Under the pieces are notes generated by a model, which made no database searches, was not told the origin of the DNA, and saw only the letters and a program-made list of their open reading frames with translations. Made by a program: the position numbers and the translations under genes. Source: Actinokineospora diospyrosa (GTDB lineage Bacteria; Actinomycetota; Actinomycetes; Mycobacteriales; Pseudonocardiaceae). From it: a stretch of DNA of 64,000 nt. How positions within the stretch are numbered: position 1 is the first letter of the stretch; every line of letters begins with the position of its first letter. The stretch is from contig NZ_JAMTCO010000002.1 in assembly GCF_024171925.1 (NCBI RefSeq), positions 275,041 to 339,040 of the forward strand, given 5' to 3'. Positions 6,381-28,589 of this stretch are shown here, piece after piece.

Positions 6381-6620
6381 GTTGTCCACAACGGCTCTGA
6401 CTGTCCACAGGCTGCTGGTTGGTGCTCCCGTTGTGTCGGGCTTCCTCGGTAGGCTGTATATCGGGGGCTCTTGATTCGGATGATCTTGTGGCGGTAGTTG
6501 GTTGTCCACAACGCCTTCTGGTGTCCACAGGGCGTTGTTCGCTGCTCCCGTTGTGTCGGTGCGTCTCGGTAGGCTGTGTATTTGGGGGCTTTCGATCAGG
6601 TTGATCTTGGCGTAGTTCGG
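6381..6620 (+). repeat. Two tandem 120-bp units with DnaA-box pairs (A1, A2)
   Basis: Two direct copies, 6381-6500 and 6501-6620, with a period of exactly 120 bp. Each begins with TTGTCCACA (6382, 6502), has a second TGTCCACA box whose 9-mer starts 19 bp later (6401, 6521), and then carries a conserved TAGGCTGTATATCGGGGGCT-type block and a GATNNTGATCTTG-type block. TTGTCCACA is the known actinobacterial DnaA box. The units lie right after the VWA gene and are not coding by my reading. Confidence 0.8.
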
Positions 6621-6679
6621 GGTTGGGAGTGCGTCGCAAGGGATTCGGGCCTCCGCCTTCGGCTCCGGTGGACGGCCTC

Positions 6680-6737
6680 GTCGCCTGGCGGCGACCTCGG
6701 CGACCCGGGATCGGACGCCTCGTTGCCTGGCGGCAAC
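6680..6737 (+). repeat. Two mini-hairpins GTYGCC-TGGC-GGCRAC
   Basis: Stem GTCGCC/GGCGAC at 6680-6695 and GTTGCC/GGCAAC at 6722-6737, both with a TGGC loop. They are part of composite repeat A. The C-to-T change on one arm is matched by G-to-A on the other, so the pairing is conserved. The same elements occur inverted in composite C. Confidence 0.6.
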
Positions 6738-6770
6738 CTCGGGCCCGATCCGCGATTTTCGAGCTTTGCT

Positions 6771-6908
6771 CGATGCGGTGGACCTGTTTTGCGCGGGGCC
6801 CCTACGACACCCGACGCAGAACCGCAAAGCAGGGGCCCAAAAGCAGGCCCTGCCGCGCGGAAACGCTACGGGTGCCGTCCCCCCACACAAAACAGGTCCA
6901 CCCCATCG
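6771..6908. repeat. 138-bp near-palindromic element, copy A
   Basis: The outer 21-base arms (6771-6791 and 6888-6908) share the core GGTGGACCTGTTTTG and pair at 20 of 21 positions. Inside, CCGCAAAGCAGGGGCCC and its imperfect complement around 6825-6860 continue the inverted symmetry, so the whole element could fold into one long hairpin. Related copies lie at 11673-11810 and 28423-28561. Confidence 0.75.
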
Positions 6909-6914
6909 AGCATT

Positions 6915-7160
6915 TGGCACCAGCGAGTCCGACTGTCCAGGTGCTGGGTAGGTGGGTTGGGGCGGACCTGACGGGGGGCCAGTTGGCCCCGGCGGGTCCG
7001 AGTGTCCAGGTGCTGGGTCGGCAGGGCCGACGAGAGCGGGCTGGGATGGCACCGCCAGGTCCGAGTGTCCAGGTGCTGAGTAGGTGGGGTGGGGCGGACC
7101 CGACGGCAGCTGGGATGGCATCGCCGGGTCCGAGTGTGCAGAGGGCTGGGTTGGTGGGCT
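6915..7160 (+). repeat. Tandem 63/69-bp GTCCGAGTGTCCAGG repeats, array A
   Basis: Four imperfect copies with GTCC anchors at about 6927, 6996, 7059 and 7128 (steps 69, 63, 69). Each has a GGCACC-like lead, the core GTCCGAGTGTCCAGG and a GGGGCGGACCTGACGG-like tail in the longer copies. The array continues more degenerately after 7290. Confidence 0.7.
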
Positions 7161-7169
7161 GGCGGGTGG

Positions 7170-7290
7170 GTTGTCCACAACGTGTTCTGTTGTCCACAGG
7201 CCCTGATCGCTGGCGCGGTTCTGTCGGGATCTCTCAATAGGCTGTATATCGGGGGCTCTTGCGGCAGATGATCTTGCGCGGGATGGGGTG
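7170..7290 (+). repeat. DnaA-box pair unit A3
   Basis: TTGTCCACA at 7171-7179 and again at 7190-7198 (start-to-start 19 bp), followed by AATAGGCTGTATATCGGGGG and CGGCAGATGATCTTGCGCGG. It is almost identical to the inverted unit at 28052-28171 (about 8 differences over ~119 bp by eye). Confidence 0.8.
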
Positions 7291-7508
7291 GAGCCAGCGA
7301 TTTCCAGTGTCCGGGTGCTGGGCTGGCGCCGCCGGGTCCGAGCGTGGATGGGCTGCTTTGGTGGGGGGCGGACCTGGCGGAAGTCCAGTTGGTATCGCTG
7401 GGGCTGAGTGTTCAGTGGTCGGCTGGGTGGATTGGGCTGGGGCTGGGTGGCACCGCTGGTCTGGGGTGTCGAGTGGTCTGCGGTGTGGGTTGGCGCCGCT
7501 TGGGGGGG
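7291..7508 (+). repeat. Degenerate tail of composite repeat A
   Basis: G-rich sequence with scattered remnants of the GTCCGAG/TGTCC repeat and GGGGGGCGGACCTGGCGG. No gene is seen. It abuts the stop of the minus-strand gene at 7509. Confidence 0.5.
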
Positions 7509-8285
7509 CTAGGCCAGGGCGGAGCCGATGGGGCCTAGGGACTCGAGTACGCCGAGGGCTTGGGCGACGTCTGATAGGTGGTGGCGTTGTGTGGGGGGTA
7601 GGTCTCGGAGGGCGGTTGCCAGGCGGGATTGGCTGGGGTGGTCCAGGTGGGTTAGGAGGGGGAGTAGGTCGTCGATGAGAGCGGTGGAGGCGATTGTTGT
7701 GGCCACGGCCGGGAGGCGGGTGTCCGGGATCAGGGCGAACAAGTCTGGTAGGCGGGCGGGGTTGTCCGTGTAGATGGCGGTGTGGAGGAGGGACTCCTCG
7801 TCCAGGGAGGTGACCAAGGCGCGCAGGGTGGGCGCGGGTAGGTCGCCGACGAAGCGGCCCATGGTTATGTGGTCTTGGCGGTTGGCTAGTTCGGTGCCTA
7901 CCTGGATGACCTTGTCCACGGGGAGGACCGCCAGTACCGGGGCGATTCGGCGGGGGTCCAGTTCGGCGGCTACGTCGGCTAGGAAGGTCACCGGTAGGCG
8001 GGATACGAGGTCTATCGCGCGGGTGGGGTCCAGGGCGCTTGCGACACGGGCGCTGAGCAGGGGGCCGAAGGTGCGTTGCGCGATGGCGGCCGTCAGGGCG
8101 GCGGGGACCAGGCGGCTGGCTAGGGCTATGCGGTCGAAGAGGGCTTTGTTTCCTCCGAAGAGGACTTCCGTCGCCCTGGTGCGGATGGCGCGGATGTCCT
8201 CCGCGGACAGTCCCACCAGGTAGTCGAAGCGGGACACCGGTTCGCCGAGGAGGCGGGCCAGTTTGGCGATCTCGGGGCGGCTCAT
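7509..8285 (-). CDS. Helical-repeat protein, function unknown
   Basis: 258 aa from the ATG at 8285. The sequence is almost entirely predicted helix with repeating leucine/alanine patterns and short repeats of the kind LPVDKVIQVG / LPAPTLRALV, reminiscent of an alpha-solenoid similar to the MgtE N-domain; I cannot name a family with certainty. No signal peptide or membrane segment is seen. The start overlaps the stop of the upstream small gene (ATGA), so the two form one operon, divergent from the TIR genes. Third-position GC falls towards the C-terminus next to repeat A. A longer in-frame extension to 8561 is rejected because it runs antisense through the partner gene. Confidence 0.7.
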   Translation of the reverse strand: MSRPEIAKLARLLGEPVSRFDYLVGLSAEDIRAIRTRATEVLFGGNKALFDRIALASRLVPAALTAAIAQRTFGPLLSARVASALDPTRAIDLVSRLPVTFLADVAAELDPRRIAPVLAVLPVDKVIQVGTELANRQDHITMGRFVGDLPAPTLRALVTSLDEESLLHTAIYTDNPARLPDLFALIPDTRLPAVATTIASTALIDDLLPLLTHLDHPSQSRLATALRDLPPTQRHHLSDVAQALGVLESLGPIGSALA

Positions 8286-8500
8286 AGGCCGATCGCCTTG
8301 CGGACCAGGGGGCGCAGGACGCGGGGGAGTTGGGCCAGCGAGTCCTCGGTCGCCGACACCAGGTGCTCGCCCTGGCGGCGGCGGGCGGTGCGCATCGCGT
8401 CGGCCAGGTCGAGGGCGGCGTCGGCGGGGAGGGCCTCCACCGCGGCGGGCAGGGGGCCGCGGAACTGCGCTCGCAGGGCGGCTCGGGGTTCGTCCGGCAC
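8282..8500 (-). CDS. Small helical protein upstream of the solenoid protein
   Basis: 72 aa from the GTG at 8500; an alternative start at 8566-8569 adds ~22 residues of poor coding quality (low third-position GC). The protein is alanine/arginine-rich and helical, e.g. ALDLADAMRTARRRQGEHL, with no membrane segment. Its stop overlaps the start of the 258-aa gene, implying coupled synthesis and possibly a complex. I recognise no family. The ~280 bp between this start and the TIR gene at 8785 must hold divergent promoters. Confidence 0.5.
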   Translation of the reverse strand: MPDEPRAALRAQFRGPLPAAVEALPADAALDLADAMRTARRRQGEHLVSATEDSLAQLPRVLRPLVRKAIGL

Positions 8501-8784
8501 AGTCGACCAGCCTGCCCGGGTGCGCGGGATCGGCCAAGTCGAACACGCAGGGTGAGTGCATCCCATCACATCGCGATGGCTGGACCGGTCAACCCCGGAC
8601 CGCTTACAAGATCATCGGGTGACTCACCGACGAACCGGGGTCACTGCCTCCGGCCTGCGATCTTTCCGGTACTCCTGGCTACCGCGGGCCCCGCGCCAGG
8701 GCCATTGGTCCCTGTCGTTGGCTCGATCCCCCACATAACGTGCGTGCACCCAAGAATTACTGCCTGTGAACGTGAGACGTGAGG

Positions 8785-10047
8785 ATGCACGTATTCATCA
8801 GCTACGCCCGCCGGGACCAAGCGTCGATCACCACCCTGCGCGCCGACTTCGAGCGGTTCGGCAACCGCGTGTGGTTCGACCGCGAGAGCCACGGCGGTCA
8901 GGACTGGTGGGACGACGTCCTGAGCCACGTGCGCGGCTGCGTCGTGTTCATCTTCGCGGTCTCGCCCGACTCGCTGCGCTCCAAGGCGTGCCTGGCCGAA
9001 CTGCGCTACGCCAAGGCGCTGCGCAGGCCGATCCTGCCGGTGCTGGTGCGGCCCGTTGACCGGGGCGCGATCCCCGATGGCCTGGAGTCGCCGGTCGACT
9101 ACGTGAACCGGACCGAGGAGACCGTGATCCGGCTGCGCAAGGCGCTCAGCGCCATGCCTGCCGCCCGCGCGCTCCCGGCCCGACTGCCCCAGGAGCCCGA
9201 GATCCCCACCTCCTACCTCAACGCCTACCTGGCGCGCATCGACGCGCCGAAGCTCGACGAGCGCGACCAGATCGAGCTGCTCGGTCAGCTGCGCGAGCGG
9301 ATGGCGCTGGCCGACGAGCGCGCCGAGGTCTGGGACCTGCTGGTGCGGCTGCGCGACCGGCCCGAGCTCAGCCGCGGGGTCGCCGACACCGTCGAGGAGA
9401 TCCTGGCGCCGGGCTGGCAGCCCGACCCGCGGGAGAACTTCGAGGCCCGCTACTGGGACGGCCAGAGCTGGACGACGCTGGTCTGGCAGAACGGCAAGGA
9501 GTTCAACGACCGCAACACCCCGCCCCGGCTGCACCAGCACCTGCCGTCCTCGACCGGGCCGGTCCCGGTGGTCACCCCGGAGCCCGAGCAGGCGCAGGCG
9601 CGGCGGGAACCGAAGCGGATCAAGCACAAGCTGCGCCGCCCGCGCAGCCCCCGGCAGAAGCTGCTGATCCTGGGCGCGGTCACCGCCGTGCTGCTCGGCG
9701 GCGGGATCACCGCCGCGGTCACGCTGCTCACCGGCGGACCCGACGAGCAGGCCGCGACCAGGATGGCCCGCGGGTTCGTCGACGCGGTCAACACCCGCGA
9801 CGAGAACGCCATGCAGTCCTACGTGTGCGGCTCGGACCGCGAGAAGAACGCCCACCTATACACAGCGTTCCTTGACGCGGCTAACGTTACCCTCGAAAGT
9901 GTCGATGTAAGCGGGTCCGACCCCCGTTTCACCGTCCTCGCGACACGCACCGTAGGAGCAACCTCGGTGCGGTTGCGTATTCCACTCGTCGACGAGAACG
10001 GCGCGTGGAAGGTGTGCGACATCAGCCGCGCGCTGTCGGGTCGCTGA
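8785..10047 (+). CDS. TIR-domain membrane protein with catalytic Glu
   Basis: 420 aa from the ATG at 8785; a GTG six bases upstream is equally possible. Domains in order: TIR domain (residues 1 to ~115, HVFISYARRD start, catalytic Glu72 in ACLAELRYA); helical linker; DUF2510 (about 209-234, GWQPDP...RYWDGQSWT); one membrane helix (about 293-317); external C-terminal domain of DUF4878/lumazine-binding-like type beginning ARGFVDAVNTRD. TIR domains with this Glu are commonly NAD+-cleaving. The topology puts the TIR inside and the C-terminal domain outside the cell. A paralogue follows after 14 bp. The last ~50 codons show unusually low third-position GC. Confidence 0.85.
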   Translation: MHVFISYARRDQASITTLRADFERFGNRVWFDRESHGGQDWWDDVLSHVRGCVVFIFAVSPDSLRSKACLAELRYAKALRRPILPVLVRPVDRGAIPDGLESPVDYVNRTEETVIRLRKALSAMPAARALPARLPQEPEIPTSYLNAYLARIDAPKLDERDQIELLGQLRERMALADERAEVWDLLVRLRDRPELSRGVADTVEEILAPGWQPDPRENFEARYWDGQSWTTLVWQNGKEFNDRNTPPRLHQHLPSSTGPVPVVTPEPEQAQARREPKRIKHKLRRPRSPRQKLLILGAVTAVLLGGGITAAVTLLTGGPDEQAATRMARGFVDAVNTRDENAMQSYVCGSDREKNAHLYTAFLDAANVTLESVDVSGSDPRFTVLATRTVGATSVRLRIPLVDENGAWKVCDISRALSGR

Positions 10048-10061
10048 CCGCGGAGTGTGAC

Positions 10062-11261
10062 ATGCAGGTGTTCGTCAGCCACGCGCCGTCCGATCGCGAC
10101 GTCGCCGCTGGTCTGCGCGCCGACCTGGCCCAGCTGGGTCGCCAGGTCTCCCTCGACCGGGGGGAACCGGTCGGGTCGCGCTGGTGGGAGGGCGTTTTGC
10201 AGCGCGTGCAGCGCTGCGACGTGTTCATCCTGGTCTCCTCACCGGCCGCCGTGCGCTCCCCGGGGTGCCTGGCCACCCTGCGCTACGCCCGCGCCCTGCG
10301 CCGCCCGGTCCTGATCGTCGTCGCCACCGCGACCGCGCTGCCCGCCGACGCCGAGACCGCCCCGGTGTTCACCCCGGCGGGCATGGAGATCAGCGAGCGG
10401 GTGCCCAAGCTGCGTGGCGCGTTGTTGGCCCTGCCCGCCGCGCCGCCGCTGCCCGACCCGCTGCCGCCCGACCCCGCCGTGCCCTACCTCGAGCCGATCC
10501 GCCAGCGCCTCGACGAGCCGAGCCTGGAGCCGGCCGAGCTGCGCGAACTGCTGCGCCAACTCCGATTACGGCTGCGCGACGAGCACGAGCGCGCTGCGGT
10601 GTGGGGGCTGCTCGTGCGGATGCGCGCGCGCACCGACCTGCCCGCGCCGCTGGCCGCCGAGGTCGAGAAGGTCCTCGCCCCCGGCTGGCAACCCGACCCG
10701 GAGCGGCGGGTGGAGAAGCGCTACTGGGACGGTCAGGCGTGGACCACCCTGGTGCGCCACGAGAACCGCGAGTTCAACGAGCGCCGGGTACCACCACCGG
10801 AGGCCACTTGGTCCGGTGATCCCACGCCTGCCCGGCCCCGCCCCGCGTCCGCGCCCCGCCAGGTGCAGAAGAAAGCGGGCGTGGGATCCCAAGAACGAAC
10901 CCGCCTCCTGCTGATCGGCGGCGGCGGCGTCATCGTGGCCGCGGTCGTCGTCGCGGGCTACCTGCTGTTCGACCCCACCTCCTCCGACCCGACCAGCACC
11001 GCCCGCGAGTTCGTCGACGCGGTGAACATCGCCGACAGGACCGCGTTGGGGCAGTTGACGTGCGAGCAGGACCGGGCCCGGGCGCCGGAGCTGTTCCTGC
11101 GCCCGGACGCGCGGTTCACGCTGGAATCGGTGGACGAGAACGCTGATCCGCCTACGTTCACGATCTTGGCGACGGACTCGGTGACCACGTCGACGGATCG
11201 GCGGACTTATCCGATGGTGGAGGAGTCGGGGAAGTGGATGGTGTGCCAGTCGCGGCGGTAG
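10062..11261 (+). CDS. TIR-domain paralogue lacking catalytic Glu
   Basis: 399 aa from the ATG at 10062, preceded by CGGAG; an in-frame upstream start at 10005 lies inside the first TIR gene. It has the same order as its neighbour: TIR (1 to ~115), DUF2510 (about 206-231, GWQPDP...RYWDGQAWT), membrane helix (about 282-303), external DUF4878-like domain (AREFVDAVNIAD). Aligned without gaps to the first protein, the position of Glu72 is Thr72 (GCLATLRYA) and the N-terminal FISYARRD becomes FVSHAPSD. It is therefore probably not an NADase and may act as regulator or scaffold of the first protein. Composite repeat B begins ~70 bp downstream. Confidence 0.82.
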   Translation: MQVFVSHAPSDRDVAAGLRADLAQLGRQVSLDRGEPVGSRWWEGVLQRVQRCDVFILVSSPAAVRSPGCLATLRYARALRRPVLIVVATATALPADAETAPVFTPAGMEISERVPKLRGALLALPAAPPLPDPLPPDPAVPYLEPIRQRLDEPSLEPAELRELLRQLRLRLRDEHERAAVWGLLVRMRARTDLPAPLAAEVEKVLAPGWQPDPERRVEKRYWDGQAWTTLVRHENREFNERRVPPPEATWSGDPTPARPRPASAPRQVQKKAGVGSQERTRLLLIGGGGVIVAAVVVAGYLLFDPTSSDPTSTAREFVDAVNIADRTALGQLTCEQDRARAPELFLRPDARFTLESVDENADPPTFTILATDSVTTSTDRRTYPMVEESGKWMVCQSRR

Positions 11262-11332
11262 TGGGTTGTCTGCTGCGGTGGTGACTGGTTGCGGTGGTGG
11301 CTGCGTGCGGTGCTGGTTGGTTGCCGGTGGTG

Positions 11333-11573
11333 GTTGTCCACAATGCCTCTGGCTGTCCACAGGCTCTGGTTGCTGCTGCTGGTTTGTCGGGCTTCCTCGG
11401 TAGGCTGTATATCGGGGGTTCTTGTGGCAGATGATCTTGTGGGGCTGGTTGTGCTTGTCCACAACGTCTTCCGCTGTCCACAGGCGCCGTTCGCTGCTGC
11501 CGTTGTGTCGGTGCTGCGAGGTAGGCTGTGTATTTGGGGGCTTTCGATCAGGTTGATCTTGACGTAGGACGGG
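11333..11573 (+). repeat. Two tandem ~120-bp DnaA-box units (B1, B2)
   Basis: B1 has TTGTCCACA at 11334-11342 and CTGTCCACA at 11353-11361; B2 has TTGTCCACA at 11455-11463 and CTGTCCACA at 11474-11482. Both pairs are spaced exactly 19 bp and the units repeat with period 121. B1 matches A1 and B2 matches A2 (including the TATTTGGGGGCTTTCGATCA variant), so A and B are copies of one composite in the same orientation. Confidence 0.8.
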
Positions 11574-11672
11574 GTTGGGAGTGCGGGGCAAGAACTTCGG
11601 GCCTCCGCCTTCGGCTCCGGTGAACGGCTCGCCTTCGGCATTGCATCTGATCCGCGATTTTCGAGCTTTGCT

Positions 11673-11810
11673 CGATGGGGTGGACCTGTTTTGCGCGGTG
11701 CCCCTACGACACCCGTGGCAGAACCGCACAGCAGGGGCCGAAAAGCATGGCCCTGCCGCGAACGACGCTACGGCTGCCGTCCCCCCACACAAAACAGGTC
11801 CACCCCATCG
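11673..11810. repeat. 138-bp near-palindromic element, copy B
   Basis: Outer arms 11673-11693 and 11790-11810 are perfect complements over 21 bases (core GGTGGACCTGTTTTG). The interior is again an imperfect inverted repeat. It has the same size as copy A. Confidence 0.75.
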
Positions 11811-11814
11811 AGCA

Positions 11815-12440
11815 TTTGGCACCAGCGAGTCCGACTGTCCAGGCGCTGGGAAGGTGGGCTGGGGCGGACCTGACGGCAGCCGAGTTGGCACCGACGGATC
11901 CGACTGTCCATGCGCTGAGTTGGCAGGGCAGCCGAGAGCGGGCTGGGCTGGCACCGCCGGGTCTGAGTGTCCAGGGCTGGGCAGGCGGGCCGGGGCGGAC
12001 CTGACGGAAGGCGAGATGGCACCGCTGGGTCCGACTGTCCAGGGGCTGGGTAGGTGGGCTGACGAGGGCGGGCTGGGCTGGCACCGCCGGGTCTGAGTGT
12101 CCAGGGGCTGATCAGGTGGGCTGGGGCGGACCTGACGGGGGCTGGCACTGCTAGGTCCGAGCGTCCAGGGGCTGGCACTGTGGGTTGGGGCGGACCTGAC
12201 GGGCGGGGGCTGGCACCGCAGGGTCCGAGTGTCCGGGGGCTGGGTTGGCAGGGCTGGCTCGGTGGGCTGGCCTGGCACCGGATCTTTGAGGGTTCATGGG
12301 CTGACTAGGTGGGTTAGGGCCGGAGCTGACGGAAGCTGGGGTGGCACTGGCGTGTCCGAGTGTTCAGGGGCTGGGCTGGGCTGGGCTGGCTCGGCGGGCT
12401 GGAGGGTACCGCTGTGGGTGAGTGGCCAGGGGGTAAGGCC
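11815..12440 (+). repeat. Tandem 62-70-bp repeat array B
   Basis: About nine imperfect copies. GTCC/GTCT/ATCC anchors lie at about 11829, 11898, 11961, 12029, 12091, 12155, 12223, a decayed copy near 12281, and 12353. The consensus contains GGCACCG, GTCCGAGTGTCCAGGGGCTG and GGGGCGGACCTGACGG. The array runs up to the end of the ADP-ribosylglycohydrolase gene and no other feature is seen in it. Confidence 0.7.
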
Positions 12441-12468
12441 GTCAGGGTGGGAGGGCTGGGTGGGGAGG

Positions 12469-13296
12469 TCAGGGGAGTAGGCGGGATTCCAGGGCGATGA
12501 GGTAGTCGCGGCCGTAGGGGCCGTTTTCCAGGCCGTCCACAAGGGAGGGTGGGAGGTCGTTGGGGAGGGTGCGGGAGGCTGCGGCTAGGGCGATCGTGGC
12601 TACTGTGTCGACGTCGCCGGTGTAGGAGGTGGTGGTGTGGAGGAGGCTGGACAGGGAGGTGGTTGATGCCAGGGCGGTGAGGGCGGCGCGGACGCTCATT
12701 CGGCCTTGGGAGCCGACTTTGCCGGTCCAGGGGGTGGACCAGTCGTCGGTCAAGATCGTGCTGATCCAGGTGCCAACACCGGACAAGGGGCCCAGGTCGC
12801 GGTCGCAGTAGTGGACGGCGAGGGCGGCGGCTTGGGCTGAGGCTATGCCGGACGGGGTGTTGTGGGTGATCTTGGCCTGGAGTTCGGCGTGGTGCAGGAC
12901 GTCGGGGGTGGTGGGGAGGAGGCCGATGGGGGTGGCCCGCATGGCGGCGCCGCTCTTGTCGGAGGTGGGGCGCAAGCGGGACAGCAGTTCCGCTCCTGTG
13001 TGCACTTCGGACAGCAGGGCGTGGAAGCCCGCGGCGTAGCCCGCGCGCGGGTCGCGGTGGAAGACGTCGACGAAGCGGTTGGCCAGTTCCAGGGGTGTCC
13101 ACTGTGCACCGTCGGCCATGAGTTCGGCGATGGCCAGGGTCATCTGGGTGTCGTCGGTGTACTGGCCGGGTTTGATGTCGGCGTGCCGGGGGTGTTGGCG
13201 GTAGGTGGCGCCGTCGTTGTGGGCGGCCACGAAGTCTGCGGGGGCGTATTCGAACCCCGCGCCGTAGGCGTCGCCCACGGCCAATTCGACGAGCAC
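12469..13296 (-). CDS. ADP-ribosylglycohydrolase family protein
   Basis: 275 aa. Metal-binding motifs of the DraG/ARH fold are present: N-terminal VGDAYG, YTDDTQM (residues 46-52) and a late TGDVDT (about 226-231, a variant of the usual GGDTDT). The family removes ADP-ribose from proteins, nucleic acids or small molecules using two Mg2+ ions. The GTG start at 13296 is chosen because AGGAGA lies just upstream; it makes a short N-terminus but keeps the first metal-site helix. The stop is adjacent to repeat array B, with the TIR genes beyond it. The MarR gene lies upstream on the same strand with only ~8 bp between, so they may be co-transcribed. Confidence 0.85.
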   Translation of the reverse strand: MLVELAVGDAYGAGFEYAPADFVAAHNDGATYRQHPRHADIKPGQYTDDTQMTLAIAELMADGAQWTPLELANRFVDVFHRDPRAGYAAGFHALLSEVHTGAELLSRLRPTSDKSGAAMRATPIGLLPTTPDVLHHAELQAKITHNTPSGIASAQAAALAVHYCDRDLGPLSGVGTWISTILTDDWSTPWTGKVGSQGRMSVRAALTALASTTSLSSLLHTTTSYTGDVDTVATIALAAASRTLPNDLPPSLVDGLENGPYGRDYLIALESRLLP

Positions 13297-13304
13297 TGTC
13301 TCTC

Positions 13305-13706
13305 CTAAGTGAACAGCCGCGCCAGGGTTTCCAGTGCGGCGATGGCTTCTCCGGCCCGCTCGGGGCCGACCGCCTCGGTGATGGCCGCCTCGATGGGCGC
13401 GTGCACCTGGACGGGCATGCCCTCGGCGCGGCGCACCAGGGTGCGGCGGCGGTCGGCGGGGTCTTGGGTGGTGGTCAGCACGCCGACCTCGCGCAGGCGG
13501 GCGACCGAGGCCGAGACGTGGCTCTGCGGCAGGCCCGTGCGGGCGGTGATGTCCTGGATGGGGCTGTCCGGGTGCTCGAACACGTCCACCAGCACCGACC
13601 GGACCCGCACCGGCAGGTCGTGGAACCCCGCTGGTGGGATCGCCTTCTCCCCGAGCCGCGTCAGCGTCCGCCCCAAGCGGAACAGTTCCACCCCGTCCAC
13701 GGCCAC
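13305..13706 (-). CDS. MarR/ArsR-type winged-helix regulator
   Basis: 133 aa from the GTG at 13706 (a second GTG lies two codons in). The winged-helix core is clear: DITARTGLPQSHVSASVARL recognition region and a DPADRRRTLV wing, typical of MarR proteins that bind DNA as dimers. The frame can be extended to 14480 but that part is antisense to the hydrolase gene. It is divergent from the alpha/beta hydrolase at 13755 with only 48 bp between, a usual arrangement for a regulator controlling its neighbour and itself. Confidence 0.8.
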   Translation of the reverse strand: MAVDGVELFRLGRTLTRLGEKAIPPAGFHDLPVRVRSVLVDVFEHPDSPIQDITARTGLPQSHVSASVARLREVGVLTTTQDPADRRRTLVRRAEGMPVQVHAPIEAAITEAVGPERAGEAIAALETLARLFT

Positions 13707-13725
13707 GATCGTATCAGCCTTGATG

Positions 13726-13739
13726 CATCTCGGCAGATG
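13726..13739. promoter_or_regulatory. Possible MarR operator
   Basis: CATCT-CGGC-AGATG, a perfect 5-bp inverted repeat in the 48-bp divergent intergenic region between the MarR-type gene and the hydrolase gene. Placement and symmetry suggest the regulator's binding site; binding is inferred. Confidence 0.4.
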
Positions 13740-13754
13740 GTTTATCGTTCGACC

Positions 13755-14537: not shown

Positions 14538-14540
14538 GGA

Positions 14541-15653: not shown

Positions 15654-15686
15654 CCTGCGGCCGGACAACGGTAGCGGATCAGATGA

Positions 15687-16832: not shown

Positions 16833-16872
16833 GCCCCTGCCCACATTCCCCCGCCACGACCTGGGTGCGAGC

Positions 16873-16992
16873 CTAGTGGCTCGACCCAGAACGTCGGCCA
16901 CGTCTCGACGTGCCCGGCGGCCGGAGGGGCCCGAGTACGAGCACGTTCCCGCCACGCCGATACACGGCCAACGCCCTGAGTCGAGCCACTAG
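16873..16992. repeat. Inverted repeat flanking ~94 bp
   Basis: CTAGTGGCTCGAC at 16873-16885 and its exact complement GTCGAGCCACTAG at 16980-16992; the right arm includes the stop codon of the ABC permease gene. A smaller palindrome CACGTCTCGACGTG lies at 16899-16912. It could be a terminator structure for the permease operon or a small mobile remnant. Confidence 0.45.
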
Positions 16993-20848: not shown

Positions 20849-21076
20849 GGACCGAACTTATTGGACTCTTCCTGAGAGTGCTCCCAGGGCCGCGCGGCGA
20901 TCACCTCCGGGTGACAGGGCTTCCGCATCCGGGCTGGTCAGGGCAGGCTGTCCCGGCAACCGGCGGTGAACGGGAGTCCCGTGGCCCCGGTGGTTGTGAC
21001 CAACCCGACCACCGCGGCGCAGCACCTCGACTGGTGTGCCGGGCCTGGACAGGGAAGAATCGGACACCGAATGTGT

Positions 21077-21169
21077 CGGAGGGGAGTATTCCTTCGCACC
21101 GGTGTCGTCAGCACGGACCTCGCGTCCCGGGACCGGTGGCCGGAGCAGTTGCGGCGGAAGAGACCTCCG
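21077..21169 (+). ncRNA. Probable yybP-ykoY (Mn2+) riboswitch
   Basis: The leader of the TerC gene contains GGGGAGTAT (21081-21089), GTGTCGTCAGCACGG (21103-21117 region) and GAAGAGACC near 21157-21165, the conserved blocks of the yybP-ykoY aptamer as known from actinobacterial TerC leaders. CGGAGG (21077-21082) can pair with CCTCCG (21164-21169) to form P1. The family senses Mn2+ and switches on manganese export genes. The identification is from memory of the consensus. Confidence 0.72.
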
Positions 21170-21207
21170 GTTGTCGGCGCGCGCCCGTACACCGGAGGTT
21201 TGTTTTC

Positions 21208-22275
21208 ATGGTCGTCCCCACCTGGGCTTGGTTCGCCACGATCGGCGGGCTGCTCGTGCTGCTCGCGATCGACTTGTTCATCGTGGACCGCAAGCCGCAC
21301 GAGGTCACCGTCGGTGAGGCGGGCCGCTGGGTGGCCTTCTACATCGGGTGCGCCATCGCCTTCGGCGGCGCCATCTGGGCGCTCTCGGGCGGCACGTACG
21401 CCGGGGAGTTCTTCGCCGGGTACATCACCGAGTACTCGCTCTCGGTGGACAACCTCTTCATCTTCCTCATCATCATGTCCGCGTTCAAGGTGCCGCGGAT
21501 CCACCAGCACAAGGTGCTGCTGATCGGCATCGTGCTCGCGCTGGTGATGCGCGGCGCGTTCATCGCCGTCGGCGCGGTCGCGATCGCGAAGTTCAGCTGG
21601 GTCTTCTACCTCTTCGGCGCCTTCCTCATCTACACCGCGTGGAACCTGTCCCGGCAGGGCCTGGGCGAGGACGAGGAATACGAGGAGAACGCGCTCACCA
21701 GGGTCGCCCGCAAGCTGTTCCCGGTGACCGACACCTACCACGGCGCGAACTCCTTCGTGCGCATCGACGGCAAGCGCTTCGTCACCCCGATGTTCATCGT
21801 GATGATCGCCATCGGCACCGCCGACCTGCTGTTCGCTGTGGACTCCATCCCGGCCATCTTCGGGCTGACCAAGGAGCCGTTCCTGGTCTTCAGCGCCAAC
21901 GCCTTCGCGCTGATGGGTCTTCGCCAGCTCTACTTCCTGCTCGGCGGCCTGCTCAAGAAGCTGGTGTACCTGTCGATCGGCCTCGCGGTGATCCTCGCCT
22001 TCATCGGCGTGAAGCTGGTGCTCGAGGCGCTGCACACCAACTCGCTGCCGTTCCTCAACGGCGGCGAGCCGCTGCCGGTCCCGGTGCCCAACATCGTGGT
22101 CTCGCTCGCGGTCATCGTCGGCGTCCTGGTCATCACGACCATCGCCAGCCTGCTCAAGTCCAAGCGCGACGATGCGCGGGGGATCACCGCCGCAGCCGCC
22201 GATTCCCCGGTCGCGGAATCACCCGCCGGGGAATCCGCCACCGAAACGGGTGAACCGGTCGACCACCGGCGCTGA
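21208..22275 (+). CDS. TerC family integral membrane protein
   Basis: 355 aa. The ATG at 21208 follows GGAGG (21194-21198) at good spacing. About nine membrane helices carry the TerC hallmarks EYSLSVDNLFIFL and GTADLLFAVDSIPAIFG with conserved acidic residues in the membrane. TerC/Alx proteins are implicated in manganese export and metal loading of exported enzymes. The upstream manganese-type riboswitch fits this role. The last ~30 residues are a hydrophilic, Glu/Ala/Ser-rich tail. A strong terminator follows. Confidence 0.9.
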   Translation: MVVPTWAWFATIGGLLVLLAIDLFIVDRKPHEVTVGEAGRWVAFYIGCAIAFGGAIWALSGGTYAGEFFAGYITEYSLSVDNLFIFLIIMSAFKVPRIHQHKVLLIGIVLALVMRGAFIAVGAVAIAKFSWVFYLFGAFLIYTAWNLSRQGLGEDEEYEENALTRVARKLFPVTDTYHGANSFVRIDGKRFVTPMFIVMIAIGTADLLFAVDSIPAIFGLTKEPFLVFSANAFALMGLRQLYFLLGGLLKKLVYLSIGLAVILAFIGVKLVLEALHTNSLPFLNGGEPLPVPVPNIVVSLAVIVGVLVITTIASLLKSKRDDARGITAAAADSPVAESPAGESATETGEPVDHRR

Positions 22276-22330
22276 ACCGGGCGTCGAACCGGGGTCGACG
22301 AACAACCCCGCCGGGGTGCGGGTGAAGCCG

Positions 22331-22370
22331 AAAAGCGGACGTGCGAACCATGCACGTCCGCTTTTCTGTG
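22331..22370 (+). terminator. Intrinsic terminator after TerC gene
   Basis: Perfect 14-bp stem AAAAGCGGACGTGC (22331-22344) / complement (22352-22365) with a 7-base loop and a T-run at the 3' side. Confidence 0.85.
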
Positions 22371-22429
22371 GACGAGTGGTAATAATCGAGGGGTCCTGGG
22401 TTTAACGTAACCTCGGGTACGGTCGTCGC

Positions 22430-24454
22430 GTGCGCCCAGAGGACATCGAACTGGCGGCGGCGCCTGGTGCGCCCGCCCTCCGCGGGGACCTGCTGCTGGT
22501 CGGTCTCGCCACCCCGGACCTGAGTACCAACTCCTACCCGGGTGGTCTGTACCGGGTGGGGCTGGCGGGCGGTGCGGTGCGCGAGTTCACCCGCGGCCAC
22601 CGCGACTGGGCACCGGCGATCTCGCCGGACGGCAGCCAGGTCGCGTTCCTGCGCAGCGCGAAAGCCGGTTCCCCGGCACAACTGCACGTCATCCCGGTCG
22701 ACGGCGGTGAGGCGCGCCAGCTCACCGACCTGCCGCTCGGCGTCGGCGCCCCGGTGTGGGCGCCGGATTCCCGGCGGATCGCTTTCGTGGCGCGGGTTCC
22801 CGAGCCCGGCCGCTACGGCGTCGCGGTCGGCGACCAGCCGCCGGGCACTGCTCCGGACGCCGCAGCCGAGGCGCCCCGGGTGATCACCCGTCTGGAGTAC
22901 CGGTTCGACGACATCGGCTTCCTGGGCGACCGTCCACTCCAGCTGTTCACTGTGGACATCAACACTGCGGACATCGGTGCGGTCAGCATCAACACCGCGG
23001 ACTTTGGCGCGGCGGATACGGACGCGGTGGGCGCCGGTGCGGCCAATACGGCGAATGCCCGGCAGCTCACCGAGGGGTACGGCACCCCGGAGCACCCGAC
23101 GTGGACGCCGGACGGCGCGCACGTGCTCGTGCGCGCCCGCCGCGACTGGGGCGTGGTGGACACGCTCAACACCGACCTGTACGCGATCCCCGCTGACGGC
23201 GGTGCGCCCGTCCTCGTCGCGCGCAGCGCGGGCACCGTGGAGCACCCGGTCGCGCTCGCCGACGGCACGGTCGCCTTCCTCGGCGACGATTTCCCCGACA
23301 CCCATTGCGTCGCGCGCAACGTCGGCCTGTGGACGGTCCCGCTCGTGCTCGACGGCGCACCCGGTCGACCGCACCGGTTGACCGACCCGGAGACCGTGGA
23401 CGCGGAGATCGCGGCCGGTCGGCCGGTGGTCACCGACTCCGGATTGCTGGTGGCCGTGCGCAACCGGGGCGCGGTCGAACTGCGCAGGGTCCCGCTGGGT
23501 GCTGACGGGGCCGCGCTCGCGGAGCTGCCCCTGGTCGCAGGCGAGCAGGCCGCGGTCAAGGGCTTCGCCGCCGACGGCGACCGGATCGTCTGCACGGTGT
23601 CCACATGGGACGCGCCGGGCGAGGTGGTGCTCGTCGAGGACGAGACCACCCGCCGCCTCACCGACTTCTCCGCCCGGTTGCGCGCCCGCGGTCTGCGCCA
23701 GCCGATCGAGGTCAAGGGCGTCGCGCCGGACGGCTACGCCACCCACGGGTGGGTCGTGCTGCCCGAGGGCGAGGGCCCGCACCCGGTCCTGCTGTCGGTG
23801 CACGGCGGCCCGTTCATGTACCACGGCTGGGGTTTCTACGACGAGGCCCAGGTCTACGCCGCGGCCGGATACGCGGTCGTGCTGCCGAACCCGCGCGGGT
23901 CCGCGGGCTACGGCGAGGCGCACGGCCGGTCCATCATCGGCGCCATGGGCACCGTCGACGTGGACGACGTGCTGTCGGTCCTCGACGCAGCCCTGGAGCG
24001 GCCGGACGTGGACCCCGCCGACGTCGGCGTCATGGGCGGCTCCTACGGCGGCTGGATGGCGGGCTGGCTGGCCGCCCACCACGGGCACCGCTTCCGCGCC
24101 GCGTGGAGCGAGCGCGCGGTCAACTCGTGGGAGTCCTTCGTCGGCACCTCGGACATCGGCTGGTGGTTCGCCGAGGCCTACTGCGGCACCGACCCGGCGC
24201 AACTGCTGGCCAGGAGCCCGCTGACGCACGCGCACCGGATCACGCTGCCGTTCGCGGTCGTCCACTCCGAACACGACTGGCGCTGCCCGGTGGAGCAGGC
24301 GCAGCGGATGTACGTGGCGTTGCGCCGCAACGGTGTCGACGCCGAGCTGATCCTGTTCCCCGGCGAGGGTCACGAGCTGACCCGCTCCGGCAAGCCCCGC
24401 CACCGCGAGCAACGTTTCCGCGAGGTATTGCGGTGGTGGTCACGGCACCTGTGA
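22430..24454 (+). CDS. S9 family prolyl oligopeptidase-like peptidase
   Basis: 674 aa, GTG start. The N-terminal WD40-like beta-propeller (to about residue 390) has repeats such as DWAPAISPDGSQVAFLR and APVWAPDSRRIAFV. The C-terminal alpha/beta hydrolase carries the triad Ser538 (GGSYGGW), Asp616 (EHDWRCP) and His648 (GEGHELTR), as in acylaminoacyl peptidases. No signal peptide is present, so it is cytosolic and should cleave small peptides. Around residues 175-212 there is an unusual low-complexity insertion with repeats INTADIG/INTADFG. It is convergent with the RES toxin gene, separated by a 19-bp-stem hairpin. Confidence 0.9.
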   Translation: MRPEDIELAAAPGAPALRGDLLLVGLATPDLSTNSYPGGLYRVGLAGGAVREFTRGHRDWAPAISPDGSQVAFLRSAKAGSPAQLHVIPVDGGEARQLTDLPLGVGAPVWAPDSRRIAFVARVPEPGRYGVAVGDQPPGTAPDAAAEAPRVITRLEYRFDDIGFLGDRPLQLFTVDINTADIGAVSINTADFGAADTDAVGAGAANTANARQLTEGYGTPEHPTWTPDGAHVLVRARRDWGVVDTLNTDLYAIPADGGAPVLVARSAGTVEHPVALADGTVAFLGDDFPDTHCVARNVGLWTVPLVLDGAPGRPHRLTDPETVDAEIAAGRPVVTDSGLLVAVRNRGAVELRRVPLGADGAALAELPLVAGEQAAVKGFAADGDRIVCTVSTWDAPGEVVLVEDETTRRLTDFSARLRARGLRQPIEVKGVAPDGYATHGWVVLPEGEGPHPVLLSVHGGPFMYHGWGFYDEAQVYAAAGYAVVLPNPRGSAGYGEAHGRSIIGAMGTVDVDDVLSVLDAALERPDVDPADVGVMGGSYGGWMAGWLAAHHGHRFRAAWSERAVNSWESFVGTSDIGWWFAEAYCGTDPAQLLARSPLTHAHRITLPFAVVHSEHDWRCPVEQAQRMYVALRRNGVDAELILFPGEGHELTRSGKPRHREQRFREVLRWWSRHL

Positions 24455-24491
24455 GCAGGTGCGGCCCGGGGACGGCGTAGGACCTCGGGCC

Positions 24492-24535
24492 GTTCGCAGC
24501 CGGTGGGCGAGGGCGTTCGCCCACCGGCTGCGAAC
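24492..24535. terminator. Bidirectional terminator hairpin
   Basis: Perfect 19-bp stem GTTCGCAGCCGGTGGGCGA (24492-24510) and complement (24517-24535) with a 6-base loop, between the convergent S9 peptidase and RES toxin genes. Confidence 0.8.
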
Positions 24536-24650
24536 CGTGTGCTCGCCGGTGGCCGGAATGCCCGGTGGCCGGAATGCGCTGAAGAACCGACCGCCGAAGA
24601 CTTCGGACCCATTTCGCCGGTTCGTCCCTGCGGGTCGGTAAACACCGAAT

Positions 24651-25304
24651 CTAAAGCAAGGTGTAATTCAATTCCTCGCACACCCTGGCCAGGGGAAGAT
24701 CCAAGCCGGGGTAGTCCAAGGGCAGCAGGACATCCGGGGTTCGCGGTAATACGCCACTGCCCGGCGGGTCCCACAGGCACACCGCCGGTTCGCCGCTGTC
24801 CATCGAGGACCGGTACCAGACCCCGTCGAGGTCGGGGTGCGCCTGGCGGATCGCCCGCGCCCAGGCCTGGGTCACCGATTTGCTGCCGGTGCTCAACTCC
24901 TGCGACGCGCCCGCCCTGGTCGGCCACAGGCCGCACAGGTCGAGCAGGCGCAGGGTGCGCCGCGGCCGGAACACCACCATGTGCGGTTTGCGGGTGGTGC
25001 GGTCGACCACCGAGGTCTGCTGGTACACCTCGGCGATGCTGGTGCGCACGCTCAGTCCGAAGTAGAGCACGCCGTGCCCCGGCGCGGTCGCGGGACCGCC
25101 GTCGGGACCCAGCGGCTGCGGGTCGAAGCGGGCGTGCGGCAGCGGACCGGTGTAGCGGAAGGAGTTCCACCGCTGGCGGTGCGCGCCCGCCGCGGCGAAC
25201 ACGCGGACCAGGTGGGTGCCGCCGTGCAGCGCCACCACGTCCTCGTCGACGCGCAACAGTGTCTTCAAGTCGGCTGCGGCTGGCGGCTGGGGGAGCCGGG
25301 ACAT
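24651..25304 (-). CDS. RES-domain toxin
   Basis: 217 aa. RES family signatures: Arg-containing NSFRYTGPLPHARFDP, the Glu in SVRTSIAEVYQ, and the Ser in GVWYRSSMDSG. Characterised RES toxins (MbcT, ParT, RES of Pseudomonas/Photorhabdus) degrade or modify with NAD+, stopping growth. The antitoxin-like gene lies 23 bp upstream on the same strand, the usual order. The ATG at 25304 is followed by a typical start MSRLPQPPAAADLKTLL. No membrane segment. Confidence 0.85.
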   Translation of the reverse strand: MSRLPQPPAAADLKTLLRVDEDVVALHGGTHLVRVFAAAGAHRQRWNSFRYTGPLPHARFDPQPLGPDGGPATAPGHGVLYFGLSVRTSIAEVYQQTSVVDRTTRKPHMVVFRPRRTLRLLDLCGLWPTRAGASQELSTGSKSVTQAWARAIRQAHPDLDGVWYRSSMDSGEPAVCLWDPPGSGVLPRTPDVLLPLDYPGLDLPLARVCEELNYTLL

Positions 25305-25327
25305 CTCTGGACGCGGACCTTCTCAGC

Positions 25328-25912
25328 TCAGGCCGGGGTGCCCAGCATCGAGGCCAACGCCGCCACCCGCGCGGGGGAACCACCCGCGAGCAGCCACTGC
25401 CGGGGCGTGGCTGGCTGGTCGTCGACGCGCAGGTCCGGCTGGGGACTGGTCATGAACGCGGCCACCACCAGCGGCGGCTGGTCGTCGGGCACCGCGGCGA
25501 GCACGGCCTCCAGGCCGGGCAGCACCCCGGCGGGCGCGAACTGCCAGGCGGGCAACCGCCACCCGCCCCGGTCCTTCCAGCCCGCGAGCCGACCGGCGGC
25601 GAGCCGGTGCCGGATGCGGCTGGTGTCCACGCCGACGGCGTCCGCGGCGTCGGCGACGGTCAGCGCCGAGTCGCGCAGCACGGCCTGGGCGGCCACCGCG
25701 CGGGCCCGCGAGTCGACCTCGTCGCCGCGCCGGGGGGTCAGGTCCAGGCCGACCTCGGTCAGCGCGTCGCGCTGGTCCGGGGAGAAGTAGTCGGCCGGGT
25801 CCGGGTTGGCCGGGGACAGCCGCCGGGCGGCCTCCTCCACCAGCTCGAGGAACTCCACCGGGTTGACCCTCAGGCCCGCCTTCGCGAGCACGTGCTCCAA
25901 CGCGACCGTCAT
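25328..25912 (-). CDS. Xre/MbcA-like antitoxin of RES toxin
   Basis: 194 aa from the ATG at 25912; the frame extends to 26014 but the added part overlaps the promoter region. A helix-turn-helix lies near residues 85-115 (ALTVADAADAVGVDTSRIRHRL). The C-terminal region (TPRQWLLAGGSPARVAALA) resembles the MbcA/ParS/Xre toxin-binding domain, which usually has a GSPEAV-type motif near the end. It should neutralise the RES toxin and repress the operon by binding its promoter at 25913-26050. Confidence 0.75.
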   Translation of the reverse strand: MTVALEHVLAKAGLRVNPVEFLELVEEAARRLSPANPDPADYFSPDQRDALTEVGLDLTPRRGDEVDSRARAVAAQAVLRDSALTVADAADAVGVDTSRIRHRLAAGRLAGWKDRGGWRLPAWQFAPAGVLPGLEAVLAAVPDDQPPLVVAAFMTSPQPDLRVDDQPATPRQWLLAGGSPARVAALASMLGTPA

Positions 25913-26055
25913 GCGCCTAGAGTATCCCGGATGTGCGGGTTCGTGCGCCTTTGTGGGAAAACTCACCTGGATCACCACGCACCGCACACGGTCAAACACC
26001 GACGGTTGTCCCACTGTAGTGCAACGGATGGCACCGACTACTACGTCATCCGGGT

Positions 26056-27900
26056 ATGAGACGGCAATGGCTCACGGTGGGAGCCGTGGTGGTGGCGGGA
26101 GCATGTGTCGCCGGGGGGATCTTCTGGTCGGGGGACGCGACGCCCCCGGCGGCGGACAACGACGTGCCGTACACCGGTGGGGTGCGGTTGGTGGCCTACG
26201 ACTCCTGCGCGGACGTCGAGGCGGACTTGAAGCGGGCCGCGAAGAAGAAGGTGACCGCCTGGGGCCTCGACGACGTGCGGATCCTCGACTCCGGGCCGAT
26301 GCCAGCGCCCGCGGCGGGCGACGCCAAGGCCGAGCGCGCCGCGGCCGCGCCCGCGCAGCACTCGGGGACCAACAACCACGAGGCCGACGCCGACGAACCG
26401 GACCTGGTCAAGACCGACGGCGCCCGGATCGTCACGGTCGCCGACGGCACGCTGCGGGTCGTCGACACGGCCACCCGCGCGCTCACCGCCAGCCTGGAGT
26501 TGCCCGGCGGGCAGGCGACCGCGCTGCTGCTCGACCGCGACCGGGCGCTGGTGGCGGTGCCGAAGTTCGAGGCCGTCGACCGGGACTCGCCGAGCGGCAA
26601 CGACATGACCACCTCGTTGGTGCTGGTCGACCTCGCGGGCGGCGGCGCGCGCGTCGCGGGCACCCTCACCGTGGACGGCTCCTACCTCGACGGCCGCCAG
26701 GTCGGCTCGGTCGCCCGGATCGTGTCCCGCTCGCAGCCGCGGCTGCGGTTCCCCGTCCCGGCGGACCCGACCGCGGCGCTGGAGCGCAACCGGGAGATCA
26801 TCGAGGAGGCGCCGCTGGAGCAGTGGCTGCCCCGCGCGACCCTGGACGCCAACGGCCACCGCGAGGTGAAGCAGCTCGACTGCCGGGCGATGAGCAGGCC
26901 CTCCGGCTACACCGGGACCGCGGCGCTCACCGTGTACACCATCGACCTGCGCGCCGACCTCGGCACCGGCGACGCGGTGTCCATCGCGGCGGACGGCGAC
27001 ACCGTCTACGGCACCGCGACCAGCCTCTACATCGCCGACGACCAGTGGTCGCGCACGGGGAACATGCCCACCCCGCGCGGTCGCACCGCCGACGTCCACA
27101 CCGACATCCACCAGTTCGACATCAGCGCACCGGGCACGCCCGTCTACCTGGCGTCCGGGACCGTGGACGGCTCGCTGGTCAACCAGTACGCGCTGTCGGA
27201 ACACCGCGGCAACCTGCGGGTGGCGACCACGGCCGGACAGGCGAGCTCGGTCACCGTCCTCACCCGCCGCGACCGCGGCTTCACCAGGACCGGCCACATC
27301 GGCGGCCTCGGTGTCGGCGAGGCCATCCAGTCCGTCCGCTACCTGGGCGACACGGCGTACGTGGTCACCTTCCGCCGCACCGACCCGCTGTACACCCTCG
27401 ACCTGGCCGACCCAGCCCACCCGAGGGTGACCGGCGAACTGAAGATCACCGGCTACTCCGCCTACCTTCACCCCCTCGACGACGGTCGCCTACTCGGCGT
27501 AGGCCAAGAGGCCACCACCCAAGGCCGCGCGACCGGTACCCAGGTCTCGCTGTTCGACACCACGAGCGCACCCGCCCGCCGGATCGCCCAGCACCACCTG
27601 CCCGGCGCGAGCTCCGAGGCCGAGTTCGACCCGCACGCGTTCCTGTACTGGGCCGACCGCGACCTGATCGCCATCCCGGTCGACACCGCCCGCGGCTCCG
27701 GCGCCGTCCTGGTCCTGCGCCTCGTCGGTGATCAGCTGACCGAGCTCGCGACCCTGCGGCACCCCGAACCATCCCGGGTGGACAGCCGCATCCGCCGCAC
27801 CCTGGTCGCAGGCGACGCCCTCTGGACCGTCTCAGCGGCGGGCCTACAAGCGGTCAACCTCGAGACTGCGAACCAGCTCGCCTGGGTGCCGTTCGGATAA
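26056..27900 (+). CDS. Secreted beta-propeller protein
   Basis: 614 aa. N-terminal membrane/signal segment (residues 5-24: TVGAVVVAGACVAGGIFW). The family landmark SGTNNHEADADEPDLVKTDG (about 96-115) identifies the secreted beta-propeller family distantly related to WD40 (COG4880-like). Repeated blades contain Asp-rich turns; the rest is extracytoplasmic, and because the N-terminal segment lacks an obvious cleavage site or lipobox the protein may be anchored. The function is unknown. The ATG at 26056 is 10 bp after a GTCATCCGGG sequence with weak ribosome-binding potential. Confidence 0.8.
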   Translation: MRRQWLTVGAVVVAGACVAGGIFWSGDATPPAADNDVPYTGGVRLVAYDSCADVEADLKRAAKKKVTAWGLDDVRILDSGPMPAPAAGDAKAERAAAAPAQHSGTNNHEADADEPDLVKTDGARIVTVADGTLRVVDTATRALTASLELPGGQATALLLDRDRALVAVPKFEAVDRDSPSGNDMTTSLVLVDLAGGGARVAGTLTVDGSYLDGRQVGSVARIVSRSQPRLRFPVPADPTAALERNREIIEEAPLEQWLPRATLDANGHREVKQLDCRAMSRPSGYTGTAALTVYTIDLRADLGTGDAVSIAADGDTVYGTATSLYIADDQWSRTGNMPTPRGRTADVHTDIHQFDISAPGTPVYLASGTVDGSLVNQYALSEHRGNLRVATTAGQASSVTVLTRRDRGFTRTGHIGGLGVGEAIQSVRYLGDTAYVVTFRRTDPLYTLDLADPAHPRVTGELKITGYSAYLHPLDDGRLLGVGQEATTQGRATGTQVSLFDTTSAPARRIAQHHLPGASSEAEFDPHAFLYWADRDLIAIPVDTARGSGAVLVLRLVGDQLTELATLRHPEPSRVDSRIRRTLVAGDALWTVSAAGLQAVNLETANQLAWVPFG

Positions 27901-27949
27901 GAGCTCCCGGTCGGCGCCACGCGGCAGGGGTGTGGCGCGGACCAGGGAA

Positions 27950-28001
27950 GTGGTCTGGTGGGTGTTCGGACCTGCGGAAGTCCGACCACCCACCAGACCA
28001 C
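27950..28001 (+). terminator. Long hairpin after beta-propeller gene
   Basis: Perfect 15-bp outer stem GTGGTCTGGTGGGTG (27950-27964) / complement (27987-28001), continuing inward with TCGGAC (27966-27971) / GTCCGA (27980-27985) after one mismatch, and an 8-base loop. There is no T-run, as is common in actinobacteria. Confidence 0.7.
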
Positions 28002-28051
28002 CACAGCACTGCCCGGCGCCAGCCCTTGGACACCCGGAACTCGCTGGCTCT

Positions 28052-28171
28052 ACCCCACCCCGCGCAAGATCATCTGCCGCAAGAGCCCCCGATATACAGC
28101 CTATTGACGGATCCCGACAGAACTGGGGCAGCGATCAGGGCCTGTGGACAACGGAACACGTTGTGGACAAC
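28052..28171 (-). repeat. DnaA-box pair unit, composite C
   Basis: On the minus strand: TTGTCCACA at 28170-28162 and again at 28151-28143 (19-bp spacing), then TAGGCTGTATATCGGGGGCT and CGGCAGATGATCTTGCGCGG. It is the inverted near-copy of unit A3 (7170-7290). Confidence 0.8.
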
Positions 28172-28420: not shown

Positions 28421-28422
28421 CT

Positions 28423-28561
28423 CGATGGGGTGGACCTGTTTTGTGTGGGGGGACGGCACCCGTAGCGTTTCCGCGCGGCAGGGCCAGTCTTTTGGGCCCC
28501 TGCTTTGCGGTTCTGCGTCGGGTGTCGTAGGGGCCCCGAGCAAAACAGGTCCACCGCATCG
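28423..28561. repeat. 139-bp near-palindromic element, copy C
   Basis: Outer arms 28423-28443 and 28541-28561 pair at 20 of 21 positions (core GGTGGACCTGTTTTG). The interior is homologous to copies A and B but inverted relative to them. Confidence 0.75.
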
Positions 28562-28589
28562 AGCTTTTCGCATTGTCGCGGATCGGGCG

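Follow-up and report, generated by a model that had tools for sequence, protein, structure and literature searches.

Paired boxes in the window and in the genome

We analysed a 64,000-nucleotide stretch of DNA from Actinokineospora diospyrosa (order Mycobacteriales; NCBI RefSeq assembly GCF_024171925.1, contig NZ_JAMTCO010000002.1, positions 275,041 to 339,040 of the forward strand), hereafter called the window. It lies on contig C2 of the source genome (G000), which has 8.11 Mb in 29 contigs. Three non-coding sites of the window carry six units, each with two putative DnaA boxes 19 bp apart, and a long hairpin is found at each site. The units are probably promoter modules, resembling that of recA, of a dispersed non-coding element. 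The features are as follows.

6382..6409, plus strand: box pair of unit A of element 1, two boxes 19 bp apart
6434..6455, plus strand: frame of unit A of element 1, with TGTCGG (6434-6439) and the -10-like TAGGCT (6450-6455), followed by GATCTTG (6482-6488)
6502..6529, plus strand: box pair of unit B of element 1, with TGTCGG at 6554-6559 and TAGGCT at 6570-6575
6675-6742: repeated GCCTCGTCGCCTGGCGGCGACCTCGG hairpins in the spacer ahead of the large hairpin of element 1
6768..6911, plus strand: 144-bp hairpin (long inverted repeat) of element 1, downstream of units A and B
6915..7158, plus strand: diverged tandem repeats of element 1 with the motif GGGTCCGAGTGTCCAGG, families D1, D2 and D5
7171..7198, plus strand: box pair of unit C of element 1, with TGTCGG at 7222-7227 and TAGGCT at 7238-7243
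11334..11361, plus strand: box pair of unit A of element 2, with TAGGCT at 11401-11406
11455..11482, plus strand: box pair of unit B of element 2, with TAGGCT at 11522-11527
11670..11813, plus strand: hairpin of element 2
27941..28738, no strand assigned: stretch with element 3 and a gene-end hairpin (27950-28001); 57 bp at the same place in congener G006
28143..28170, minus strand: box pair of unit C of element 3, inverted, with TAGGCT of the minus strand at 28103-28098
28420..28564, minus strand: hairpin of element 3

All six box pairs were found at the positions that an earlier, sequence-only reading had given for them. The pattern TNTCCACA-N11-TNTCCACA occurred six times in the window and never in 100 shuffles of it, and 255 times in the whole genome against once for the reversed pattern used as control. 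Twelve of the 15 TNTCCACA sites of the window belong to the six pairs. The conserved frame described by the same reading was also recovered: the GATCTTG block is present in 6/6 units, and TAGGCTGTATATCGGGGG is exact in four of them, with TAGGCTGTGTATTTGGGGG in its place in the units at 6502 and 11455. None of 101 sampled units fell inside a gene called by a codon-usage gene caller, which agrees with the claim that the units are non-coding; this sample (100-101 of the 255 units) comprises the window and the places listed on contigs C1-C5. The statement that the window is not the replication origin (oriC) is likewise correct, as dnaA sits on contig C7. At another locus of contig C2 (L028, about 273.5-273.7 kb), a series of additional TGTCCACA boxes at intervals of about 18-19 bp lies upstream of two normal units.

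Promoter-like frame of the units

A hexamer of the form TA(G/A)(G/C)CT was present in 91 of 100 distinct units, 39 nucleotides (nt) past box 2 in 50 of them and 40 nt past it in 41. The published consensus of LexA/RecA-independent damage promoters is tTGTCRgtg - 8 nt - TannnT (PMC5656591), which is given as the PafBC motif in PMC6789036 and PMC8223512; in it, TGTC stands at -16. TGTC(A/G)G stood exactly 16 nt ahead of the hexamer in 80 of the 91 units and was absent at every other offset between -40 and -6, so that these 80 agree with the RecA-NDp/PafBC consensus, with the lower-case gtg kept in part. PafBC is described as activated by single-stranded DNA (PMC11804915). The conserved frame of the units looks like a promoter: its -10-type hexamer keeps a fixed distance from the boxes, and it has a putative RecA-NDp/PafBC core.

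Two other subtypes of unit were seen. In the second (L079 and L087, contig C5), the pair is followed by TAGACTGG 37 nt past box 2 and then by CCCCCCGGAGAGGGTGGGGGC, and similar units occur in G005 and G009. In the third (L098 of G002; L097 and L118 of G010), the pair is followed by TAGCGTTGAAAAC or TAGCGTTGACAAC; the units of G002 stand three in tandem in steps of 137 bp, each with a hairpin of the GGGGTCCCC type.

Spacing and conservation

The spacing was checked with an anchor independent of the boxes, TARGCTGTRTATNNGGGG, which occurs 248 times in the genome (control 0). On contigs C1-C4, to which the comparison with exact pairs was restricted, an exact pair lay 64-69 bp upstream of 70 of the 94 anchors, and 12 of the 82 exact pairs had no anchor. 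Of the anchors lacking an exact pair, we inspected 24 on C1-C4 and one on C5, and 14 of these 25 had a pair with 1-3 mismatches, always at 19 bp. Because all these imperfect pairs kept 19 bp, the spacing is strict wherever two boxes exist, in line with the earlier claim that it is kept across copies; the far box is sometimes missing. At one locus (L384, C2:111100-112200), the near box alone accompanies each of three anchors, which follow one another at intervals of about 300 bp.

Among 95 anchored units (97 blocks, two with more than 8 mismatches being left out), conservation at the box positions was 86-100%, apart from 63% at the first base of box 2. Between the boxes, the ten bases were mixed (38-98%), and the stretch past box 2 was conserved at 44-76%, except for two conserved Gs immediately after the box. 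These figures lean high, because most loci were fetched for containing a pair.

The same layout upstream of comEA, ssd and recA

The recA gene of the source genome (L260) is preceded by CCATCCACA, TTGTCCACA at 19 bp, and TAGCGT after 39 nt, with CGTCGG at -16. Upstream of comEA and ssd of the same genome, box pairs 19 bp apart were recognised by eye, without the PafBC core, and the pair at comEA is accompanied by a -10-type hexamer. We then scored loci of the order for a pair 17-21 bp apart with an in-frame start codon 35-110 nt later, taking for each family the 30 loci with the best scores, from 61 genomes for comEA, 61 for ssd and 41 for recA. Such a pair was found at 26/30 comEA, 22/30 ssd and 18/30 recA loci, leaving 4, 8 and 12 without one, respectively. 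The same test gave 0/467 for called genes of the source-genome loci and 30/5560 for random windows of the fetched loci; such windows may include real promoters. A cruder frame finder, now superseded, had given 23/30 for comEA and 17/23 for ssd, seven ssd loci being dropped for having no frame; in its 23 comEA loci the hexamer lay 38-41 nt past box 2 and was TAGCGT in 12.

The start codon was 51-54 nt past box 2 in 24 of the 26 pair-bearing comEA loci, and therefore these messages would be leaderless. At ssd the start codon is usually more distant from box 2. Of 199 genomes sampled in the order, 34 had strict pairs of the form TTGTCCACA-N10-TTGTCCACAG, as did 4 of 296 genomes of a class sample, all four within the order. 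In other genera, the genes directly after strict pairs encode SSB, DUF4192 (three loci), an M23/NlpC protein, ComEA-like SLBB/HhH proteins and UPF0102, and some strict pairs have no such gene downstream. A Pfam search of the proteins of loci L037 and L058 gave no match. At six comEA loci outside the order (L216, L219, L223, L226, L236 and L240), boxes were 27-33 bp apart, against 18-20 bp; by our own interpretation this may be about one helical turn more. In the best supported reading, the element has its box pair in common with a class of competence/repair promoters found across the order.

Candidates for the box-binding protein

The box TTGTCCACA is listed as a high-affinity DnaA box of Streptomyces coelicolor and Mycobacterium tuberculosis in Table 1 of PMC4285127, which is matched with the earlier identification of the boxes as actinobacterial DnaA boxes. 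Downstream (3') of dnaA in the source genome, where oriC is expected, we identified TTGTCCACA, TCATCCACA, TTGTACACA and TTCTCCACA, as well as one tandem in the presumed oriC (L210, contig C7) whose DnaA-type boxes are spaced by 20 bp; such tandems occur in some congeners too. The boxes of the units are the same 9-mers as those 3' of dnaA in the own genome and in congeners, and the com promoters carry DnaA-box variants also seen there.

It had been proposed that the units titrate DnaA, like datA, or reactivate it, like DARS, so that some 500 boxes would soak up or recharge DnaA and set replication timing. The identity of the boxes, the tandem near dnaA and the 255 pairs of the genome all speak for it. 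But a fixed -10-type hexamer and a PafBC core would be superfluous in such sites, and the number of strict-pattern pairs is highly uneven in the genus, ranging from 0 to 179 across 16 genomes. Moreover, E. coli DnaA is described as preferring boxes 2-3 bp apart (PMC11317965), and a mycobacterial DnaA map has five regions, comEA and recA not being named in its main text (PMC7738170). We consider this proposal improbable as it was stated, the conserved frame being promoter-like instead. The units may titrate DnaA incidentally, but their anatomy does not point to titration.

We put the chance that DnaA is the binder of the pairs at about one in three. Another lead comes from Micrococcus luteus, for which a link has been described between com genes and an HTH_17 protein encoded next to a pilus operon (PMC8467076). 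A wider reading gives DnaA the central role: paired DnaA at 18-20 bp would control promoters of DNA uptake and recombination (comEA, the ssd/tad pilus, ssb and recA, many of them leaderless) and let replication stress turn on transformation, and a mobile non-coding Actinokineospora element would have captured this module about 250 times, giving a DnaA-responsive transcription array. We regard it as tentative, with the odds clearly against it.

Anatomy of the element and its hairpin

Site 1 (about 6373-7321) has the order unit A, unit B, spacer, hairpin, tandem repeats, unit C. Site 2 resembles the first part of it (82% over 797 bp; unit C not seen) and site 3 the second part (84% over 669 bp; units A and B not seen). 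Because these two sites each share one part, the full order is seen only once in the window. Two adjacent genes, each with a TIR_2 domain and DUF2510 and possibly encoding immune-type proteins, lie directly ahead of element 2 (8785-11261, plus strand). A gene with a bacterial nitric oxide synthase oxygenase domain, common across actinobacterial genomes, occupies 28726-30093 on the minus strand.

Among 60 clusters with both neighbours called, 39 were in convergent, 19 in tandem and 2 in divergent context. As background, 90 of 482 of all called neighbours and 46 of 136 gaps of at least 250 bp, unit sites included, were convergent.

The hairpin of element 1 (on 6767-6912) had a predicted fold of -89.9 kcal/mol with a z-score of -10. 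In the sampled loci there were 29 hairpins (58 rows, palindromes being listed once per strand), and for 19 of them the 900 bp upstream held an exact-pair unit, 18 of these pairings sharing one relative orientation; the order of unit and then hairpin is also found in congeners G005 and G006. It is conceivable from these data that the element works through its hairpin RNA, as a multicopy small RNA whose induction accompanies that of recA, and that the units are ordinary promoters for it. Changes on both sides that keep the pairing, seen at 6 of 44 predicted pairs (20 copies, four species), would agree with this. On the other side, the covariation term of the same alignment was small (-0.48 kcal/mol), a palindrome serving DNA mobility would appear alike, 10 of the 29 hairpins have no exact-pair unit upstream, and the window gave no Rfam match at gathering thresholds. 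We judge this reading of the element to be unlikely.

Several other origins were considered and rejected. A known RNA family was rejected on the Rfam result, and DUF222/13E12 HNH elements as the source were rejected because PF02720 was not found in the source genome. The earlier suggestion of a plasmid-derived control region was not supported, and plasmid or phage origin was rejected, since blastn against plasmid and phage collections gave no match; one hairpin pattern searched in viral contigs gave no match either. A peptide read from the conserved (A/T)TGATCTTG was rejected by eye, as the spacings between units are not multiples of three and the B units have an early stop. A composite transposon with terminal hairpins was rejected too: each arm has its partner about 120 bp off, except two that lie near the end of a locus. 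The inverted repeat is internal to the element, not terminal, no target-site duplication was noticed by eye, and neither the ends of the element nor a mobiliser was found, no transposase search having been made.

Presence and absence in congeners

The genes flanking site 3 are syntenic in congeners. The window has about 800-850 bp between them, while the gap is 57 bp in G006, 0 bp in G005, 32 bp in G009 and 22 bp in G003, which means that element 3 is absent there. In G012 the gap measures 607 bp and nothing in it matched the element in this comparison, and G013 gave no resolved gap. An empty orthologous site in relatives, as is characteristic of insertion-type elements, is thus found at site 3, the one site that the insertion check covers.

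At other places of G005, G006 and G012, the hairpin was matched dozens of times. In the congener loci sampled, the box pair was present in 6/6 units of G005, 7/7 of G006 and 0/2 of G012, and TGTCRG in 0/6, 5/7 and 2/2, respectively. These counts show that the box pair and the PafBC core are separable inputs across congeners.

Such a distribution would also be given by a plain selfish repeat, similar to a miniature inverted-repeat transposable element (MITE), which once captured a recA-type promoter and whose motifs persist by descent from a few sources, with no current role. The presence or absence of the insertion between congeners, the many copies in G005, G006 and G012 and the lack of coding content are in accordance with it. 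But copies are 16-18% diverged, yet the boxes, core and hexamer are conserved against variable neighbours, a contrast to be read with the sampling, which favours intact boxes. G005 and G012 have retained different promoter halves, which fits drift equally with function. We find a repeat with no current role doubtful.

Interpretation

Taken together, we interpret the paired-box units as recA-like promoter modules of DNA-damage/competence type, with PafBC core and box pair, carried by a dispersed non-coding insertion-type element, and we give this reading a probability of roughly 65%. DNA damage or replication trouble would let PafBC on RNA polymerase activate the unit promoters, and the box-pair protein, DnaA or a competence regulator of like specificity, might boost or gate them. 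Transcripts would enter the hairpin, and the structured RNAs formed in this way would be a family controlled much as recA is. The approximately 250 modules would compete with comEA, ssd and recA for the box-pair protein.

Several observations weigh against this interpretation. Nine of the 100 units have no TA(G/A)(G/C)CT hexamer: six belong to the TAGACTGG subtype, two are partial pairs within a cluster of boxes, and one has AAGGCT. The hexamer and the core are matches in sequence, and a generic sigma-70 scan misses both, the sigma-70/terminator scan being uninformative. Eleven of the 25 inspected anchors without an exact pair have essentially just the -10-proximal box, one of them with a poor second match (3 mismatches, 17 bp). 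The CGTCGG of the own recA is one base off the PafBC core, and outside the order none of 24 comEA loci had a pair at 17-21 bp (29 comEA loci in the class sample). Damage control would be non-universal, because the G005 units are without the PafBC core, and insertion is seen at the single site examined.

Significance

The control of natural transformation in actinobacteria is largely open. A cis motif common to comEA, ssd, ssb and recA in the order, and identical to the DnaA box, would give a defined bait for its regulator. A dispersed element multiplying a recA-type promoter would provide a naturally occurring array of reporters for the DNA-damage response, and it would exemplify the spread of regulatory sites through insertion. 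Neither the motif of comEA, ssd, ssb and recA nor a dispersed recA-type element was found in the literature searched, most subscription journals lying outside it; a search by sequence string returned only papers with unrelated sequences.

Comparison with known systems

The units are most like RecA-NDp (recA P1)/PafBC promoters, with TGTC(A/G)G at -16 from a TA-N3-T hexamer and no evident -35, and their core class is that found at recA. They differ by the DnaA-type box pair upstream, by their place in non-coding repeats and by the number of about 250 copies.

With DnaA-regulated promoters and DnaA-box clusters such as oriC, datA and DARS, the units have TT(G/A)TCCACA and its variants in common. 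datA and DARS combine a DnaA-box cluster with a nucleoid-protein site and alter the nucleotide state of DnaA. What sets the units apart is their layout, with two putative boxes separated by 19 bp and a -10-type hexamer that follows them at a constant distance. The regulatory pairs of E. coli DnaA, as given in the source cited above, are only 2-3 bp apart.

Competence regulons of the ComK or SigX type are the comparison from Firmicutes. They are alike in that a single cis motif stands ahead of comEA, ssb, recA and pilus-type genes; the motif here is different, and the regulator here is only a candidate.

BOX/RUP and MITE-type sequences are dispersed intergenic repeats, and MITEs are marked by terminal inverted repeats, target-site duplication and a parent transposase. 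The present element is similarly short, non-coding, multicopy and intergenic, contains an inverted repeat, and at a given site occurs in some species but not in others. It differs in that its inverted repeat is internal and that it carries what appear to be promoter modules.

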